21,317 bases of DNA from the IMG/VR virus record IMGVR_UViG_3300037070_006258, positions 1-21,317 of that record. One strand, written 5' to 3'. The translations under genes were made by a program, and so were the position numbers. The stretch is from a virus. Below, piece after piece: positions 3,254 through 17,480 of this stretch (position 1 is its first letter; the number at the start of each line of letters is the position of its first letter). The notes below the pieces were generated by a model that worked only from the letters and a program-made list of their open reading frames with translations, was not told the origin of the DNA and made no database searches.

Positions 3254-4858
3254 TCAGGCTCCAATGGCGACAGTGCTGCCGCCGTCGTACTGACCGATGG
3301 TGATCACGACGAACTCGGCGGGCGCCGTGAGAGCGATGCCGCACTCGACGTTGACCTGCCCCTGATCGATCATGTTCGGTGTGTTGATGGTCTCGTCACA
3401 GGTGACGTAGAAGGCATCGGTGACCGTGGCGCCCTTGAGCCCTCCGCTCTGCCAGAAGCTGGCGAGGTAGGAGGAACAGACCGACCGGAGTCGCTCCCAC
3501 AGTCGGGCGTCGTTGGGCTCGAAGACGGCGAACTCGGTCAGCTGCTTGAGGCTGCTGCCGATCTCGATCAGCGAGCGACGGTTGCTGATGTACTTGTCGA
3601 GCCCGAACATCTTGAGCGTACGGCCGCCCATGATGGCGAACCCGGCCTGACCGGTCGAGCGCCCGTTGACGTAGCGGATGGCATTGACGTGAGCGTTGTT
3701 GAGCAACGTCAAGTCAGCGTCGGTGAGCTTGCGCTCCGAGGCGCTGGCGCCGGAGACGATCATCTGCGCTCCCGCAGGGGTGCGCCAGGCGCCGAAGGCG
3801 GCGTCGGTCGACAGGAAGGCGCCGACGACCGCCCCGCCCGGTGGGTGCAGTGCCTGACGGCCACCAGCGGAGCCCAGCGCCGGCATGTAGATCCACGGGT
3901 AGTACACGGCGGCGAAGCTCGGAGCAGTGGTCCCGATTGACCCGAGCGCCAACGTCGTACCGGCGTACGTCTTGGCCTCGGTCGGCGTCTTGCCGACCGC
4001 CGTGTCGACCACCACGAACGTCGTCTGCTGGCCGGCGGCCGCCGAGACGGTGTTCTTGATGATCGTCTCGTCGGTCATGTTGGGGAGGTTCAGGATCAAC
4101 GGGACGTCGATCTCGTTGAGCGAGGCGACGGCGGCCCCGTAGGCGACTGCAGGGTCGTAGGGCGTGCTGTACGTGCCGTCGGCCCCCGCGGTGAAGTCGT
4201 TGCCGCCGGCGGTCCCGGGGTACGGCTTCACGGTCGGCGTTGAAGGGTTGTAGGACTGTCCGGTGAAGGTCACGTACGACGACCCGGCGATGCTCGGGAA
4301 GTTGGCGATCGAGTAGAGGTACCGCGAATCAGCCGGGTCGAGCGTGACGTCGAGCCACTGGTCGAGCAGCCACTCGGTGTTGCGCTTCGCGGGGTCGAAG
4401 GTCGGCTCGGTGGACGGGTACTTGAACAACGCCACGTCGAAGCGTCCGTTGGTCTTGTCGCGCGTCGTTACGACGAGCTTCAGATCGTTTCCCCACACCC
4501 CCGGGTTGGAGGCGGTGGCCGTGAACAGCGCCACCGCCGCACCTGGGGCGCCGACGACGGTGTCGTCGTACACCTTGAGTGACGAGGGGAGTGCACCGCT
4601 ACCGGCGATGCGCACGATCGCCGCTCCGTGTCCACCGTTGGTGTAGAAGTCGTTGACGGCGTTGTGGAGGTCGGTGTAGTTCGTCCCGTAGAGCCGGGAG
4701 AACTCGGCCCAGGAGTTGACGATGGCCACGGTCAACGGTCCTTGGTGAGACCGACCGATGAACGCACCCAGTGTGGAGATCACTCCGCCGGGCGCCTGGC
4801 CGGGCTGGAATGCCTTCTCCACCGTCTGGACACCTGGGTAGTAGAGGTCAGTGGGCAT
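3254..4858 (-). CDS. Contractile tail sheath protein
   Basis: A 534-aa protein, ATG at 4858 with a purine-rich GAGAAGG upstream. The N-terminus YYPGVQTVEKAF followed by GAFIGRSHQGP is the classic sheath opening (beta-rich arm plus first insertion domain). The C-terminal region DARLWERLRSVCSSYLASFW, then FYVTCDETINTPNMIDQGQV and LTAPAEFVVITIGQYDGG, matches the conserved C-terminal domain of the phage tail sheath family (PF04984/PF17482). The less conserved middle (about residues 80-300) is the expected surface-exposed insertion. The protein polymerises around the tail tube and contracts to drive it through the cell envelope. Its stop lies 11 bases upstream of the tube start, so the two are almost certainly co-transcribed. 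This is the clearest evidence for a myovirus morphology. Confidence 0.95.
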   Translation of the reverse strand: MPTDLYYPGVQTVEKAFQPGQAPGGVISTLGAFIGRSHQGPLTVAIVNSWAEFSRLYGTNYTDLHNAVNDFYTNGGHGAAIVRIAGSGALPSSLKVYDDTVVGAPGAAVALFTATASNPGVWGNDLKLVVTTRDKTNGRFDVALFKYPSTEPTFDPAKRNTEWLLDQWLDVTLDPADSRYLYSIANFPSIAGSSYVTFTGQSYNPSTPTVKPYPGTAGGNDFTAGADGTYSTPYDPAVAYGAAVASLNEIDVPLILNLPNMTDETIIKNTVSAAAGQQTTFVVVDTAVGKTPTEAKTYAGTTLALGSIGTTAPSFAAVYYPWIYMPALGSAGGRQALHPPGGAVVGAFLSTDAAFGAWRTPAGAQMIVSGASASERKLTDADLTLLNNAHVNAIRYVNGRSTGQAGFAIMGGRTLKMFGLDKYISNRRSLIEIGSSLKQLTEFAVFEPNDARLWERLRSVCSSYLASFWQSGGLKGATVTDAFYVTCDETINTPNMIDQGQVNVECGIALTAPAEFVVITIGQYDGGSTVAIGA

Positions 4859-6005: not shown

Positions 6006-6611
6006 TTACGGCCTGATGGAGCCGGTGTAGACCTCGTGATCGCCCGTGTAGTCGGTGAAAGCGTCCTGGTCCTGCACGTCGCCGGTACCGAGGGCGCCGC
6101 CGGTCTGGTACGCCTGCTCCCGGATCAGTGGGCCGAGCATGTTCACGAGATCGCCCGGGATGTGGTCGAAGATGAGGTCCTCGTCCGGCGAGACACGCTC
6201 GCACTCGACACCGATGATGACCGAGTGGCCGCCCATGCGGCCGCGGATCTGGAAGGCGTTGACCGTCCACAGCGTGCGGTGGTACAGCACGATGTCGTTC
6301 TGGTGGCGCTCGGCGTCCATCACATCCGACACACCTGACCGCCGGAGCTGAGCGATGTCGACGGCGAAGCGCAGGGTCGGGTTGTAGCGCCCTCCCTCAG
6401 GCGGGTTCTCCTCGTCGTCCTCGTTCTCGATGACCCACAGCACGGGCACGCCGATGCCCTTGGCGTACGTCCGGCCGCCCTCATCGAAGACCGACGTGAA
6501 GGTGCTGTGCTCGGCGTCGTACTCGTACCAGAGCACGCCCTCACCGAGGGTCTGCTGATACCACCCGAGCCCGAGGCGGCGGATCTCAGCCAGCTCGCGG
6601 CGCGTGTCCAT
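6006..6611 (-). CDS. Head-tail connector/neck candidate, unknown family
   Basis: A 201-aa protein with ATG at 6611, which overlaps the stop of the Arr-like gene (TGATG), and a Shine-Dalgarno GAGGA five bases upstream. An N-terminal helix (RELAEIRRLGLGWYQQTL) leads into a beta-rich aromatic domain (GVLWYEYDAEHSTFTSVFDE). A conserved-looking YNPTLRFAVDIAQLRRSG segment follows, then HQNDIVLYHRTLWTVNAFQI and GGHSVIIGVECERVSPDED. The pattern of a virion-type beta domain with few charges in the core fits a stopper or neck protein, and the neighbours are connector and tail-completion genes. I do not recognise a named family. The C-terminal 30 residues are acidic and probably flexible. Confidence 0.65.
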   Translation of the reverse strand: MDTRRELAEIRRLGLGWYQQTLGEGVLWYEYDAEHSTFTSVFDEGGRTYAKGIGVPVLWVIENEDDEENPPEGGRYNPTLRFAVDIAQLRRSGVSDVMDAERHQNDIVLYHRTLWTVNAFQIRGRMGGHSVIIGVECERVSPDEDLIFDHIPGDLVNMLGPLIREQAYQTGGALGTGDVQDQDAFTDYTGDHEVYTGSIRP

Positions 6612-6922
6612 CAGTCCTCGACCCTACGCCGCACCCTGAACCCCACCGGGTCGGCGGCGTGCCGCACGCCCCAGATCTCGGCCGGGCTGCTCATGTGCTC
6701 GACCTCATAGACCAGAGGCTCGCGCGGATCGTCGGGGTTGCGCCGGTTGTGCATACGGGCCTTGACGCTGGCGACGGCCTGGGCGTGCTCCAGGTCCGCC
6801 GTGGCGTAGGCCATCGGCTCCTCGGTGTGCTCGGTGTCGGTCGGGTTGACGGTGTCGCCTTCGAGGAACGGGTGCACCGTGCCGTGGAACAGCGCAGCGC
6901 TGAGGTGCTCCACGGCGGCCAC
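6611..6922 (-). CDS. Small Arr-like ADP-ribosyltransferase candidate
   Basis: A 103-aa protein from GTG 6922, chosen because AAGGAG lies eight bases upstream and the GTG shares one base with the previous stop (TAGTG). The sequence follows the rifampin ADP-ribosyltransferase (Arr, PF12120) pattern. LFHGT (H13) is followed by a GD segment (22-23), then AYATADLEHA (Y39) aligns with the second NAD-contact motif, and LVYEVE (70-75) with the central strand ending in Glu. The C-terminal DPVGFRVRRRVED resembles the last Arr strand. The aspartate-rich segment that carries the third catalytic residue in Arr is shortened; E75 or D91 might substitute, or the enzyme may be inactive. Arr proteins transfer ADP-ribose from NAD to rifamycins, and related folds modify proteins. 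It sits inside the connector gene chain, and its target is unknown. Confidence 0.6.
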   Translation of the reverse strand: MAAVEHLSAALFHGTVHPFLEGDTVNPTDTEHTEEPMAYATADLEHAQAVASVKARMHNRRNPDDPREPLVYEVEHMSSPAEIWGVRHAADPVGFRVRRRVED

Positions 6923-7272
6923 TACTGGTACTCCTTGTCCTCGGGCACCGCCGAGTGCGGGCCGTACTCCTCGGGCGTCGGCATGCGCGGCTCGCCCGAC
7001 CAAGCGCCGGTCTCGGTGAACTCGGCGAACTGGTCGTGAGAGAGCTTGTACGTCGGTGCCCGACCCTTGACCTCAGCGAGACCAATGACGGTGCGCTTGA
7101 CGGTGTCGATGATCTCCCGACCGAGCTTGGCGTGCAACACCGGGTCGTACGGGGGCGCCGGACGGCCGGCAGCGAGCTTGCGCGCGGCGTCGATCTGCTC
7201 CTGGGAGGTGCGCCGGGCGGTTCCCCGGGTGTCGAGGCGCTTGGTGAAGTCGTAGCCCTTCTTCTGGCTCAT
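6922..7272 (-). CDS. Conserved-type hypothetical protein, 116 aa
   Basis: ATG at 7272 overlaps the preceding stop (TGATG), and AGAGG lies about 8-9 bases upstream. The N-terminal third is strongly basic and helical (MSQKKGYDFTKRLDTRGTAR, then SQEQIDAARKLAAG). A Pro-rich linker and a helix HAKLGREIIDTVKRTVIGLAEV follow, and the C-terminus is acidic and Pro/Gly-rich (PEEYGPHSAVPEDKEYQ). No domain is recognised. It is translationally coupled to the Arr-like gene downstream and to the 110-aa gene upstream. A small DNA- or capsid-associated virion protein would fit the charge pattern, but this is only a suggestion. Confidence 0.6.
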   Translation of the reverse strand: MSQKKGYDFTKRLDTRGTARRTSQEQIDAARKLAAGRPAPPYDPVLHAKLGREIIDTVKRTVIGLAEVKGRAPTYKLSHDQFAEFTETGAWSGEPRMPTPEEYGPHSAVPEDKEYQ

Positions 7273-7604
7273 CAGCGTGGCCTCTGCTTGAGGAGGTCGT
7301 TGTGAGCGCCCTTGGCCGCTCTGCGTACATGCGTCTTCATCTTGGATGGCGTCATGCCGTGCATGACCTCGGAGCTGACCGTGCGGTAGTACGACCCGGT
7401 CGTGTCCTTCTCCTCGTGCGGACCGTGCGTGGTGCGCACGATCCAGTCACTGCTGTTGACCTGCTCGGCCTGCGCCCGGATGGCGTGGGGCTCGTGCGGG
7501 AGACGATCGGTGAGGTTGACCTCGGCGTACACCCGCGCCCGACCGGTGTTGTGGTCCTTGCCCTCCTGCTCGTGGAGGTTGGCCTGATCGGGGTGTCGAG
7601 GCAT
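7272..7604 (-). CDS. Hypothetical protein, 110 aa, His-rich and basic
   Basis: ATG at 7604. The upstream Shine-Dalgarno is weak (GAGTGAG). The protein is hydrophilic and rich in His and Arg: an N-terminal MPRHPDQANLHEQEGKDHN, a middle segment RARVYAEVNLTDRLPHEPHAI, then DWIVRTTHGPHEEKDTTGSYY and a basic C-terminal helix MKTHVRRAAKGAHNDLLKQR. No family is recognised. The stop overlaps the start of the 116-aa gene. The 29 bases between this gene and the 282-aa gene upstream contain no promoter or terminator that I can see, so it likely belongs to the same transcript. Confidence 0.55.
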   Translation of the reverse strand: MPRHPDQANLHEQEGKDHNTGRARVYAEVNLTDRLPHEPHAIRAQAEQVNSSDWIVRTTHGPHEEKDTTGSYYRTVSSEVMHGMTPSKMKTHVRRAAKGAHNDLLKQRPR

Positions 7605-7633: not shown

Positions 7634-8482
7634 TCATGGCTCTGTCACCGGTGGGTACGCCTCGGGCGTCTCGGCGAAGCCGGTGACCACGCGGGCCGGG
7701 ATGAAGTCGGGCGGCGGCGTGGTCGGCAGGTTGGTCGGGTTGGGCGGGAAGAGCCGCAGCGGACGCGAGGCGTCGTCCCATTCACGGGACTTGTAGACCG
7801 GCACGAGGCGGCCGGTGGTACGGCTGATCCGCCGGAGGTGAAACATCTCCGACGACTCCAGACCGATGTTCAGCATCTGTGCCTTGGTCTTGTACTTGTT
7901 GACGAGCCCGCTCGGGGAGAAGAGGAGGTCCTCCATCTGCCGGTAGCGCTGGGTCGCCGGGACGGAGACAGCCTCGGGCGTGGAGATGTCGATGTCGCGG
8001 GCGAACTCGATCAGCTGTGACCACAGCGCCTCGACGGCGGACCCGAGAGCGATAGCGTCAGCCTCGACGTCGGAGACAGACGAGAGCACGAAGTCGGGCC
8101 GGTGGTACTGATGCTCAGCGATGGTGTTCTCGACGAAGAACACGAGATCCTCGTCAGTGACCCACGTGTAGTAGTAGCCCTCAGCGTTGATGTACGTGCC
8201 AGCCGGGAAGCCGGCCGTGATCGGCGCTGCGATCCGCAGCAGACCATTGCGCTCGTCGAGCAGGTAGCTGAACACCGTAGCGGTCGCCGTAGCGTCCGGC
8301 CGCCCCTCGTAAACCGCCGTACCGGCAACAGCGGTGACGAAGAGCCCGGCCGGGGAGATGTTGGGATGGGGCAGCTGGAACGTGCGCGAGCCGTCCTGGC
8401 GCGCCGCCGTCGACTGGAAGAACTTCTTGTGGTCGCGCATGTACGTGCGGGACGTCGCCATCAGCGATTCGATGCTGGGCAT
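7634..8482 (-). CDS. Head-tail adaptor / virion protein candidate, 282 aa
   Basis: ATG at 8482 overlaps the stop of the 58-aa gene (TGATG), with GGGAGG five bases upstream. The first 40 residues are helical. A beta domain follows (RTFQLPHPNISPAGLFVTAV, then VFSYLLDERNGLLRIAAPI and GTYINAEGYYYTWVTDED). A long helical part comes next, FVENTIAEHQYHRPDF through VEALWSQLIEFARDIDISTP and QRYRQMEDLLFSPSGLVNKY. The C-terminus is Pro-rich (PPNPTNLPTTPPPDF). The mixed alpha/beta organisation and the location between capsid and tail completion genes suggest an adaptor or connector-associated virion protein. No named family is identified. Confidence 0.6.
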   Translation of the reverse strand: MPSIESLMATSRTYMRDHKKFFQSTAARQDGSRTFQLPHPNISPAGLFVTAVAGTAVYEGRPDATATATVFSYLLDERNGLLRIAAPITAGFPAGTYINAEGYYYTWVTDEDLVFFVENTIAEHQYHRPDFVLSSVSDVEADAIALGSAVEALWSQLIEFARDIDISTPEAVSVPATQRYRQMEDLLFSPSGLVNKYKTKAQMLNIGLESSEMFHLRRISRTTGRLVPVYKSREWDDASRPLRLFPPNPTNLPTTPPPDFIPARVVTGFAETPEAYPPVTEP

Positions 8483-10829: not shown

Positions 10830-11963
10830 TCAGTTGGTCGCCATCGTGACGACGGCCTGCGGCGTGATCGCCCCGAAGCCGTAGATCGAGTACCACGCCA
10901 GGGCGTGCTCACGACCGAAGTCGAGGACGCCGCCGTCGCGCAGCTCGACCGGCAGCGAGATCGCATGCCCGAAGGCGTTGTCGCCGATCATGATGCCGAA
11001 GTACTCGTCGAAGCCGGCGCCGGTCGCCGTCTTCTTGACCTGCGTGGTCTCGATGAACACGACGTCGTTGAGACGCCCGATCTCGCCGAGCATGAAGTTG
11101 CCCGGGGCCGCGTACTTCGAGACCTCGATGAACTCCGGCGTGTCGCGCAGCGCACGGCTCTGGTGCGGGTGGATGAAGGCGACGTACGTCTCCCCGAGGC
11201 GGGGGATGTTCAGCGATGACAACATCTCGACACCGTCCTTGACGGTGTACGTCGTGAACTTGTAGGCCTCCTTGCCGGTCGTGCCGTCGGCCGCATCGAC
11301 GGCCGCCTGGTTGGCAGCCTTGAGACCGGGCTCGTAGATGTTCGTCGACGGGCCCTGGTACGGGGCAGCCAGCCGGTAGCCGAAGGCCACGTTGCCGGCC
11401 GCCGACAGGAGCGTGTTGCGGGCCTGGATGTCCATCGACTGCGCCATGTGACGCCCGAGGAGTCGGGAGCCCGACGCCATGATGTCGTCGAACGAAGCGT
11501 GCAGGAGCAACTCCGACACGGCGATGGCGTAGCCCTGTTCACCGACGCTGATGCGGTACTGGAAGGCCGACAGGGCCTTCGTCGTCATGCGCACACCCTC
11601 GGTGAGGGCCGCACCTGCGACCTGATCCACCGGGAGGTTGTTGTACTTCATGAAGTTGACCGTGAGGCCCGGCTGGACTCCCAGCTCGGTCTTCTTTACG
11701 GCAAACTGCTCGAAGCGCAGGATCGGCATGGCCTCGAAGAGGATCTCCTTCGACCAGATCGCCTGGATCGCTGGAGTCATCGCTGTTGAACCGGTGATGG
11801 CGGTGCCCTGCGGGTAGCCGTCGGTCACCATCCCGCTCGGGGCGGGTGCGACCTGGACGCCGAGGAAGGCACCTCCAGTGGGGACGGCAGCGGGGTTGTT
11901 GCCCCCGGACACGCCGGAGTACAGGTTCCCAGTGCCCGAGACGGCACCCGAGATGTCGGGCAT
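10830..11963 (-). CDS. Major capsid protein (N4-gp56-like HK97 fold)
   Basis: A 377-aa protein with ATG at 11963 and a very strong AGGAGG-type Shine-Dalgarno, as expected for an abundant virion protein. The Gly/Ala/Pro-rich first 50 residues are flexible. AIQAIWSKEILFEAMPILRF (about 66-85), KTELGVQPGLTVNFMKYNNL and the later EQGYAIAVSELLL match the N4-gp56 family of HK97-fold capsid proteins. The peptide YVAFIHPHQSRALRDTPEFI, followed by KYAAPGNFMLGEIGRLNDVVFIET, is the family's typical C-terminal A-domain part. It lies directly downstream of a coiled-coil scaffold candidate and downstream of the portal, the standard head-gene order. No obvious N-terminal propeptide cleavage signal is visible. 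Confidence 0.88.
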   Translation of the reverse strand: MPDISGAVSGTGNLYSGVSGGNNPAAVPTGGAFLGVQVAPAPSGMVTDGYPQGTAITGSTAMTPAIQAIWSKEILFEAMPILRFEQFAVKKTELGVQPGLTVNFMKYNNLPVDQVAGAALTEGVRMTTKALSAFQYRISVGEQGYAIAVSELLLHASFDDIMASGSRLLGRHMAQSMDIQARNTLLSAAGNVAFGYRLAAPYQGPSTNIYEPGLKAANQAAVDAADGTTGKEAYKFTTYTVKDGVEMLSSLNIPRLGETYVAFIHPHQSRALRDTPEFIEVSKYAAPGNFMLGEIGRLNDVVFIETTQVKKTATGAGFDEYFGIMIGDNAFGHAISLPVELRDGGVLDFGREHALAWYSIYGFGAITPQAVVTMATN

Positions 11964-16425: not shown

Positions 16426-16965
16426 ATGAACGTTGTCCTGACCATCGACGAGTGCGGCGAGCTGCTGCGGTACGTCCGCGGCGCGGAGTTCTCGGGAGCC
16501 GCCCGCCGCAAGCTCGCTGAGTTCCTGGAGCAACGAGGGCTGACGTTGGACGAGGCGCTCCCGATCGCCCAGCAGCGCTGGGGCGCCCGGTCCAAGATCC
16601 ACAAGATGTGCGGGAGCCCGGTGTGGTGCAGCGTCTGCGGCAAGCGGGCAACGAAGGTGACGAACAACGGATGGCGTTGCCGAGAGCACTGGGAGACAGT
16701 GAGTGAGCCGCTGTACGACTGGGCCAGCGGGTTCGCCCTCCCAGACACTCGCGATGCACGCAAGCACCGGGCCCAGTTCTCACACAAGTACTGCGTGTAC
16801 TGCGGAGAGATCGCCACCTGCCTCGCCAGAGATGCGTTCTGGTCCTGCGACGAGCACAAGCTGAAGTCCAAGCCCAAGACGCCCATCTACGATCGCCTCA
16901 CCGGTGAACGCTTGATCCAGGAGTTCACTCCGCCGAGCACATCGCCGGAGACCACCTTCTCGTAG
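16426..16965 (+). CDS. Antisense zinc-binding protein with two C2CH sites, 179 aa
   Basis: This is the only plus-strand gene. Reading from ATG 16426 gives a helical N-terminus (LTIDECGELLRYVRGAEFSG; AARRKLAEFLEQRGLTLDEAL) and two similar putative zinc sites. Site one is C68-x2-C71 (CSVC) with C85-x2-H88 (CREH). Site two is C123-x2-C126 (CVYC) with C141-x2-H144 (CDEH). Both have the form 'C-xC-G-A... W-C-xH', suggesting an internal duplication. Such ribbons often bind nucleic acid, and no catalytic motif is seen. The ordered Cys/His spacing shows the plus frame is real, while the overlapping minus frame is Ser/Arg/Pro-biased. The 3' end overlaps the convergent 197-aa gene by 79 bases. It is probably an independently expressed moron-like or regulatory gene. 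Confidence 0.8.
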   Translation: MNVVLTIDECGELLRYVRGAEFSGAARRKLAEFLEQRGLTLDEALPIAQQRWGARSKIHKMCGSPVWCSVCGKRATKVTNNGWRCREHWETVSEPLYDWASGFALPDTRDARKHRAQFSHKYCVYCGEIATCLARDAFWSCDEHKLKSKPKTPIYDRLTGERLIQEFTPPSTSPETTFS

Positions 16966-17480
16966 ACGTCGGGGTGCAGTCGCAACGTGTTGAGGTACTC
17001 CTCGATGCCGTGCTTGTCCCCCAACCGCTGCGTCGAGAGCGGGTTGTCGTGGGTGCCGGCGTACCCGGCGTTCTCGTCGACCTCACCGTAGGCGCGCTCG
17101 TTGCGCGCGACCGTGGCTGATCGAGCAGCCGTCGTACCTGCCGGCGTGCGCGGAAACCCCTCGCTCACATCGAGGTCGACCTCAGCCCTCGGCTGGCGCT
17201 CGCTCTCGTGCCAGGCGCCCATGTACATTTCTGGTCCGGCCAACTGGGATTTGTTCTTCCGAGCGAATGCTGCTGTCTGCCGGCCTGAGATGGGAGCTGG
17301 GAGCGATTCAGCGACGCTGCCGGGGACTCCGCCCACCATGAGCCGGTCACGCGCAAGCACCACTTCTCCGTTCGGACCCTGCTGTGCCTTGGCGGAGAAC
17401 CCTGACTCCGTCTCGCCCGGCGGGATCGTGTTGGCCGTGTCGGCCAGCTCCTTGAACTGGTCGCGGTTCAACCACGTCAT
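16887..17480 (-). CDS. Hypothetical protein, 197 aa
   Basis: The start ATG 17480 (MTWLNRDQFKELADTANTIP) is chosen because upstream sequence in this frame is Ser/Arg-rich and belongs to the 55-aa gene. The Shine-Dalgarno is poor (GTGTGGGG just before ATG). A GTG at 17486 is an alternative. The protein is hydrophilic, with EMYMGAWHESERQPRAEVDL in the middle, then VARNERAYGEVDENAGYAGT and a C-terminal HGIEEYLNTLRLHPDVYEKV. No family is recognised. It begins 13 bases after the stop of the 55-aa gene. Its last 79 bases are shared with the 3' end of the plus-strand zinc gene, so the two transcripts would be complementary there. Confidence 0.6.
   Translation of the reverse strand: MTWLNRDQFKELADTANTIPPGETESGFSAKAQQGPNGEVVLARDRLMVGGVPGSVAESLPAPISGRQTAAFARKNKSQLAGPEMYMGAWHESERQPRAEVDLDVSEGFPRTPAGTTAARSATVARNERAYGEVDENAGYAGTHDNPLSTQRLGDKHGIEEYLNTLRLHPDVYEKVVSGDVLGGVNSWIKRSPVRRS

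Follow-up and report, generated by a model that had tools for sequence, protein, structure and literature searches.

The closest described relative of the protein considered here is Arr, an ADP-ribosyltransferase (ART) that requires His19, Tyr49 and Asp84 according to Baysarowich et al., as cited in PMC13246000. In phage T4 the internal proteins and the ART Alt are packaged in the head, and ten N-terminal residues suffice to target an internal protein (PMC9026906). ARTs encoded next to portal and terminase genes, which are most common in myoviruses, were also read as head-packaged (PMC9503650), as were solo GNATs located among late genes (PMC5512222). Freshwater phages with ART genes, some of them predicted to infect Actinobacteria, were noted before without mention of an N-terminal motif (PMC6802176). 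Here we describe an Arr-fold ART of an environmental phage that, with a probability we place at about even, would be one interchangeable cargo of a virion-delivery tag, both its packaging and its activity being inferred.

The stretch of DNA analysed (the window) is a 21,317-base virus record of IMG/VR in which almost every long gene lies on the minus strand. The minus-strand genes form a contractile-tail structural module with tube, sheath, neck-type, tail-collar, capsid, scaffold-like and portal genes. The gene under study (6611-6922, minus strand) starts with GTG, ends with TGA and encodes a protein of 103 aa, (M)AAVEHLSAALFHGTVHPF...MAYAT...LVYEVEHMSSPAEIWG...GFRVRRRVED, hereafter the mini-ART. 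An earlier note, made from the same DNA, had listed this reading frame without its strand, and the frame does exist. Further observations of that note proved to be exact: single bases are common to the consecutive genes 6922-7272, 6611-6922 and 6006-6611, the motifs HGT, YAT and VYEVE (the last with Glu75) begin at residues 13, 39 and 71, and the surroundings are of virion type. The latter include, all on the minus strand, the tail tube (PF06841; 2643-3245), the tail sheath (3254-4858), a neck-type gene adjoining the mini-ART, the major capsid protein (10830-11963; 76-95% identity in the high-GC contigs covering it and 57% in the tag-array phage G013) and the portal protein (PF05133; 12868-14550). 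An ORF of 179 aa on the opposite strand to the surrounding module (16426-16965, plus strand) contains repeated Cys/His pairs resembling zinc ribbons.

The phage is probably an actinobacteria-infecting environmental relative of the Streptomyces borockviruses. Its portal is 52% identical to those of four of them (BRock, Alone3, GiJojo and pSt2308), its capsid protein is 57% identical to that of BRock, its sheath is about 35% identical, and the gene order around the mini-ART locus is the same.

Relatives of the mini-ART were found in viral contigs at 59-65% identity, with more distant ones at 25-38%. Those in IMG/VR align over the full length, which is more than expected by chance. The dN/dS values between homologues range from 0.04 to 0.65; they are fairly high between the window protein and its nearest relatives (0.43-0.65) and amount to 0.04-0.24 in other pairs, with one of 0.45. 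These comparisons point to purifying selection on the gene, of no great strength near the window and stronger between the other pairs.

The structure of the mini-ART predicted by AlphaFold2 from the family alignment (pLDDT 84.2, pTM 0.75) was compared with known folds by two methods, and both place it within the Arr fold. Ranks 1-3 of the Foldseek search against the PDB are occupied by Arr and Arr-2 (E 4e-4 to 2e-3; best probability 1.00). The VIA Z values are 11.2, 9.9 and 8.9 for Arr-2, Arr and Arr, followed by Tpt1 with 8.1; the best match extends over 94 residues with an rmsd of 2.5. The profile of the 19-member family gave Arr as its only match among all PDB sequences (E 0.035), and 8 of the 19 members match PF12120 at E<=1 (best 4.6e-6). 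Two sisters of the window protein (28.1 and 29.4 bits) and one tagged sister (48.6 bits) exceed the curated PF12120 cut-off of 25 bits, the last of them matching true Arr-2 with 38.9% identity (E 1e-6). The window protein itself has no match to PF12120 at E<=1 and for this reason is not assigned to that family. Nor is it classed as a rifampin ADP-ribosyltransferase, since the NCBIfam equivalog NF033144 (rifampin_ARR, 130 bits), on which true Arr-2 scores 223 bits, gives no match with it and 41.7 bits with the best tagged sister. The window protein alone yielded nothing significant in Pfam, NCBIfam or PHROG and no tblastn match among 50,697 cultured-phage records; a scan based on A1 found no relative in 84,980 bacterial and archaeal genomes. 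The profile of all 19 members was too diverse for a scan of the collection.

The Arr-like reading proposed in the earlier note is thereby supported by the fold, the family profile and the sister proteins above the PF12120 cut-off, while the profile check holds for the family and not for the window protein taken singly. Absence of an ART fold and a match to a connector family would both speak against it; both were looked at, and the outcomes favour an ART. The window gene thus most probably encodes a minimal Arr-fold ADP-ribosyltransferase, a relative of Arr whose activity is plausible and may resemble that of Arr. Several copies can occur together: contig L020 carries four divergent Arr-like genes, and a possible second Arr-like match was seen in contig L003 (14584-15177). 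An "Acinetobacter phage" match of one tagged Arr turned out to be a resistance-gene contig with a true Arr-2 and was kept only as a reference.

The putative active site was compared with that of Arr residue by residue (all codons on the minus strand). Equivalents of both His19 and Tyr49 are present. His13 (codon 6884-6886) is aligned with the catalytic His19 and is invariant (19/19 members), and Tyr39 (6806-6808) is aligned with Tyr49, its position being occupied by Y, F or W in 18/19 members and by H in one. Glu75 of the VYEVE strand (6698-6700) is aligned with the Glu of Arr VEP and is found in 16/19 members. At the third catalytic position Ile83 is aligned with Asp84 of Arr, and this column is hydrophobic across the window clade. 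The adjoining column, one position earlier, holds Glu82 (6677-6679), which is D or E in 13/19 members and Asp in all seven closest relatives; the DP pair is retained in a more Arr-like tagged sister (L103, 16399-16719). The Asp-rich segment had earlier been described as missing, and DDP is indeed absent, but a conserved acidic residue stands one position before the aligned Asp84. Judging from the alignment, the active site is altered rather than plainly missing. Catalysis is not assured, because the position of Tyr39 is occupied by Phe or Trp in several close relatives and because of the hydrophobic Asp84 column in the clade.

The N-terminal residues 1-12 of the mini-ART (MAAVEHLSAALF, with V/M at position 1; 6887-6922, minus strand) are a variant of the tag M-x-A-x-[D/E]-[N/H]-L-[S/N]-x-x-Q-F, degenerate in that Leu takes the place of Gln at position 11. 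Residues 1-7 lie outside the predicted fold, are disordered in the model and are conserved in relatives. All eight close homologues start with M-x-A-x-[DE]-H-L-[SN] (GTG starts counted as M), and neighbouring small genes in the relatives begin likewise but encode other folds. A degenerate DNA pattern for M-x-A-x-D-N-L-x-x-x-Q-F revealed 55 viral loci, and at nearly all of them a small protein begins precisely with the match. These proteins comprise Arr-like ARTs, ARTs of other types, GNATs, ParB-like proteins and several unknown ones. The GNATs have Pfam matches above the cut-off. The ParB/Srx-like ones are GHHR proteins; one tagged ParB-like protein gave an only moderate model (pLDDT 64) with weak ParB/sulfiredoxin matches, and this model served only as support. 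With the variants [DE][NH]LGxQF and [DE]H[LV]-[S/N]-x-x-QF the viral scan yielded 32 and 25 further matches, again nearly all at small effector-like genes, in contigs of 40 to 67% GC.

A relaxed search of the collected loci, many of which had themselves been selected by the tag, counted 111 distinct tagged proteins; once the tag is cut off, these form 22 sequence clusters, including a few that resemble chance matches. Run on reversed DNA, the search found 0 tagged proteins. Since many loci were chosen by the tag, more weight is to be given to the control with 257 Gb of bacterial and archaeal genomes, which returned 43 pattern matches and 0 strict tags, against 55/64 strict in viruses. Both controls reject the tag as an effect of chance or composition. 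The N-terminus of the mini-ART is therefore, by these searches, a tag common to non-homologous small proteins, a feature the earlier note had overlooked.

No other clearly tagged gene was found in the window. One gene there (16887-17480, minus strand) starts with MTWLNRDQFKELAD, containing a tag-like L-N-x-x-Q-F; its sole relative found is in contig L028 (42% identity). A search among cultured phages found no members of the tag system, and gp084 of Mycobacterium phage Phabba, a GNAT relative of a tagged protein, was rejected as it does not have the tag. A text search of 5.39 million papers for the tag motif strings tried found no mention of them. Some contigs encode the tag on peptides of 41-43 aa with no enzyme domain (L066 5383-5514, L082, L091, L093, L100 and L052 6502-6627), where it is followed by the conserved tail MYVNVAMQM-PPS-ASNTASSTKA; these are possibly structural or competitor peptides of the tag system.

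The mini-ART gene is situated in a slot between two conserved genes on the minus strand. The upstream flank is a connector-region gene (7634-8482) homologous to gp143 of BRock, and the downstream one is the neck-type gene (6006-6611) homologous to BRock gp142 (26%, 2e-13). The slot is empty in the borockviruses: the two homologues abut directly in the Streptomyces phages examined, and no tagged protein was found in BRock. In the window it also contains, on the minus strand, the genes 7272-7604, conserved in the two closest contigs (L002 and L028), and 6922-7272, absent from L002 and seen only in the window among the loci compared. In L002 the ART shares the slot with another extra gene. Contig L028 has a portal of 93% identity; there a long tail-fibre-like ORF begins at the slot, and no ART was found. 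A tagged ParB-like gene occupies the slot in L060/L095, and four genes do so in L008, namely a gene without assigned type, a tagged GNAT, a gene that is ART-like by its WRGE/HWT motifs though it matches no profile, and a ParB-like gene. The ART of other relatives sits directly before the portal. In two high-GC relatives the gene directly before the ART (L015 4917-6014 and L011 1841-2920) has an HEFGH zincin-type motif, seen in L015. The mini-ART gene is an accessory, mobile cassette by this comparison, because both the content of the slot and the position of the ART vary among relatives; this variability was not recognised earlier.

Many tagged small effector-like proteins of this and related lineages (several ART types, GNAT acetyltransferases, ParB/sulfiredoxin-like proteins and others) form interchangeable cassettes of the structural and late-gene region. 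A long tagged array shares its contig with a portal 53% and a capsid protein 57% identical to those of the window (L101/L102). The cassettes of other contigs have lysis genes and not head genes nearby, and two tagged genes of L062 run in the direction opposed to that of portal and terminase. Beside tagged arrays of low-GC phages a proteasome-like N-terminal-nucleophile hydrolase was recognised by eye (L101 16467-17015, L105 13446-13994 and L107 6748-7299).

Taken together, these data suggest, at a level where belief and doubt are evenly balanced, that an environmental lineage of actinobacterial myophages marks cargo in general with an N-terminal peptide of 9-12 residues, M-x-A-x-[DE]-[NH]-[LV]-[S/N/G]-(x)-x-Q-F, a signal unrelated to that of T4. 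The same reading, to which we give an equal chance of being right or wrong, holds that the signal would load exchangeable arrays of small effectors into the virion for injection, the mini-Arr being one cargo. Its place in the coupled gene chain suggests that the mini-ART would be made late, together with the connector genes. The tag would then bind a head or core component, and the mini-ART would thereby enter the procapsid. Ejected together with the phage DNA, it would reach the next host and there transfer ADP-ribose from NAD, the acceptor being a protein of the host, a nucleic acid or a small molecule. In this it would resemble T4 Alt and the capsid-targeting sequence of T4, but belong to another fold subfamily and carry an unrelated tag. 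The degenerate tag of the window, its lack of other clearly tagged genes and the fairly high dN/dS towards the nearest relatives speak against this reading, and late co-transcription would not be universal, because of the opposite-strand pair of L062.

This pair and the arrays near lysis genes leave room for a role of the tag other than packaging. The tag may serve for docking to a partner within the infected cell (a scaffold of the phage, the membrane of the host or one of its complexes, for instance), an explanation that we consider rather unlikely but worth attention. The enzymes would stay unpackaged and, at the same low likelihood, have a late function in the ongoing infection, such as superinfection exclusion or the timing of lysis. 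Such a role agrees with the location of tagged arrays beside endolysin and holin-like genes in low-GC phages and with the opposite-strand pair; it fits less well with several cassettes placed inside the portal/neck gene chain with short overlaps, and with effector types that match those described earlier as virion-packaged (PMC5512222, PMC9503650). It is improbable that the common N-terminus carries no peptide signal and reflects cassette recombination via a common start region or a translation-enhancing start context. The codon for Ser2 does point in that direction, being AGC in 34/41 genes compared with 73/385 Ser codons elsewhere in those genes, and this bias hints at an extra nucleotide-level constraint near the start. 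The other conserved codons vary synonymously (all six for Leu7, 30/29 for Phe12, 33/23 for Asp5), and the tag is retained across GC 0.40-0.67. Selection acts mainly on the tag peptide, because synonymous codons vary freely with the exception of AGC at Ser2.

The enzyme may also be read without reference to a tag. The mini-ART could be an Arr that inactivates rifamycin or another small molecule and protects the infected host, its N-terminus being merely an inherited start. Arr is the closest family in both fold and sequence, and Arr-family ARTs of Gordonia, Microbacterium and Sinorhizobium phages were interpreted in this way (PMC9503650). We regard this reading as improbable: even the most Arr-like tagged sister stays below the rifampin_ARR threshold, the Asp84 column is not conserved in the clade, L020 has four divergent copies, and GNAT and ParB-like proteins bear the same tag. 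That the ART fold has decayed or been reused structurally and serves as a neck protein seems very improbable. The location among neck genes and the non-canonical equivalents of Tyr39 and Asp84 are compatible with it, but the flanks abut in cultured relatives, so that the mini-ART is not an essential neck part and was rejected as a structural neck gene; besides, the ART lies elsewhere in relatives, just before the portal, and His13 is invariant. Among the three options raised in the earlier note, the ART acting on the host is thus favoured, via virion packaging, because of the tag common to non-homologous proteins and the accessory cassette in a variable slot, and the rifamycin-inactivating enzyme and the reused fold are disfavoured.

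If virion delivery by the tag is true, a simple N-terminal search would allow uncultured phages to be screened for candidate proteins of host takeover and counter-defence and, provided that the tag marks injected effectors, would reach folds without recognised homologues. The tag would also give a portable means to load proteins into particles of actinobacterial phages.

Compared with Arr (PF12120; PDB 2hw2, 9iaf, 9iba), the mini-ART has the same fold, strand order and order of the HGT, YAT and V-E motifs, with His and Tyr aligned. In contrast to Arr, it is about 40 residues shorter, has an extra N-terminal tag, belongs to virion gene modules, carries the acidic residue one position before a hydrophobic Asp84 column and does not reach the cut-offs of Pfam and NCBIfam. 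Polyvalent proteins and MuF-fused effectors (PMC5512222, PMC9503650) likewise bring ART, GNAT and ParB-like domains near portal and terminase, but fuse them in one large protein, with at least two effector domains per polypeptide in the polyvalent ones, whereas here they are separate single-domain genes with a common short N-terminal tag, the mini-ART being a single domain of 103 aa. Alt and the internal proteins of T4 (PMC9026906) belong to another phage lineage with no evident sequence similarity. No conserved prohead-protease site [L/I]-x-E was found in the tag consensus MxAx[DE][NH]L[SN]xx[QL]F, and for lack of this cleavage motif the tag is not filed as a T4-type capsid-targeting sequence. 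As in T4, a short N-terminal peptide is common to small phage proteins that are otherwise dissimilar and unrelated in fold, an ART among them, and the genes are accessory and vary between relatives; by this analogy the tag may work like a capsid-targeting sequence.
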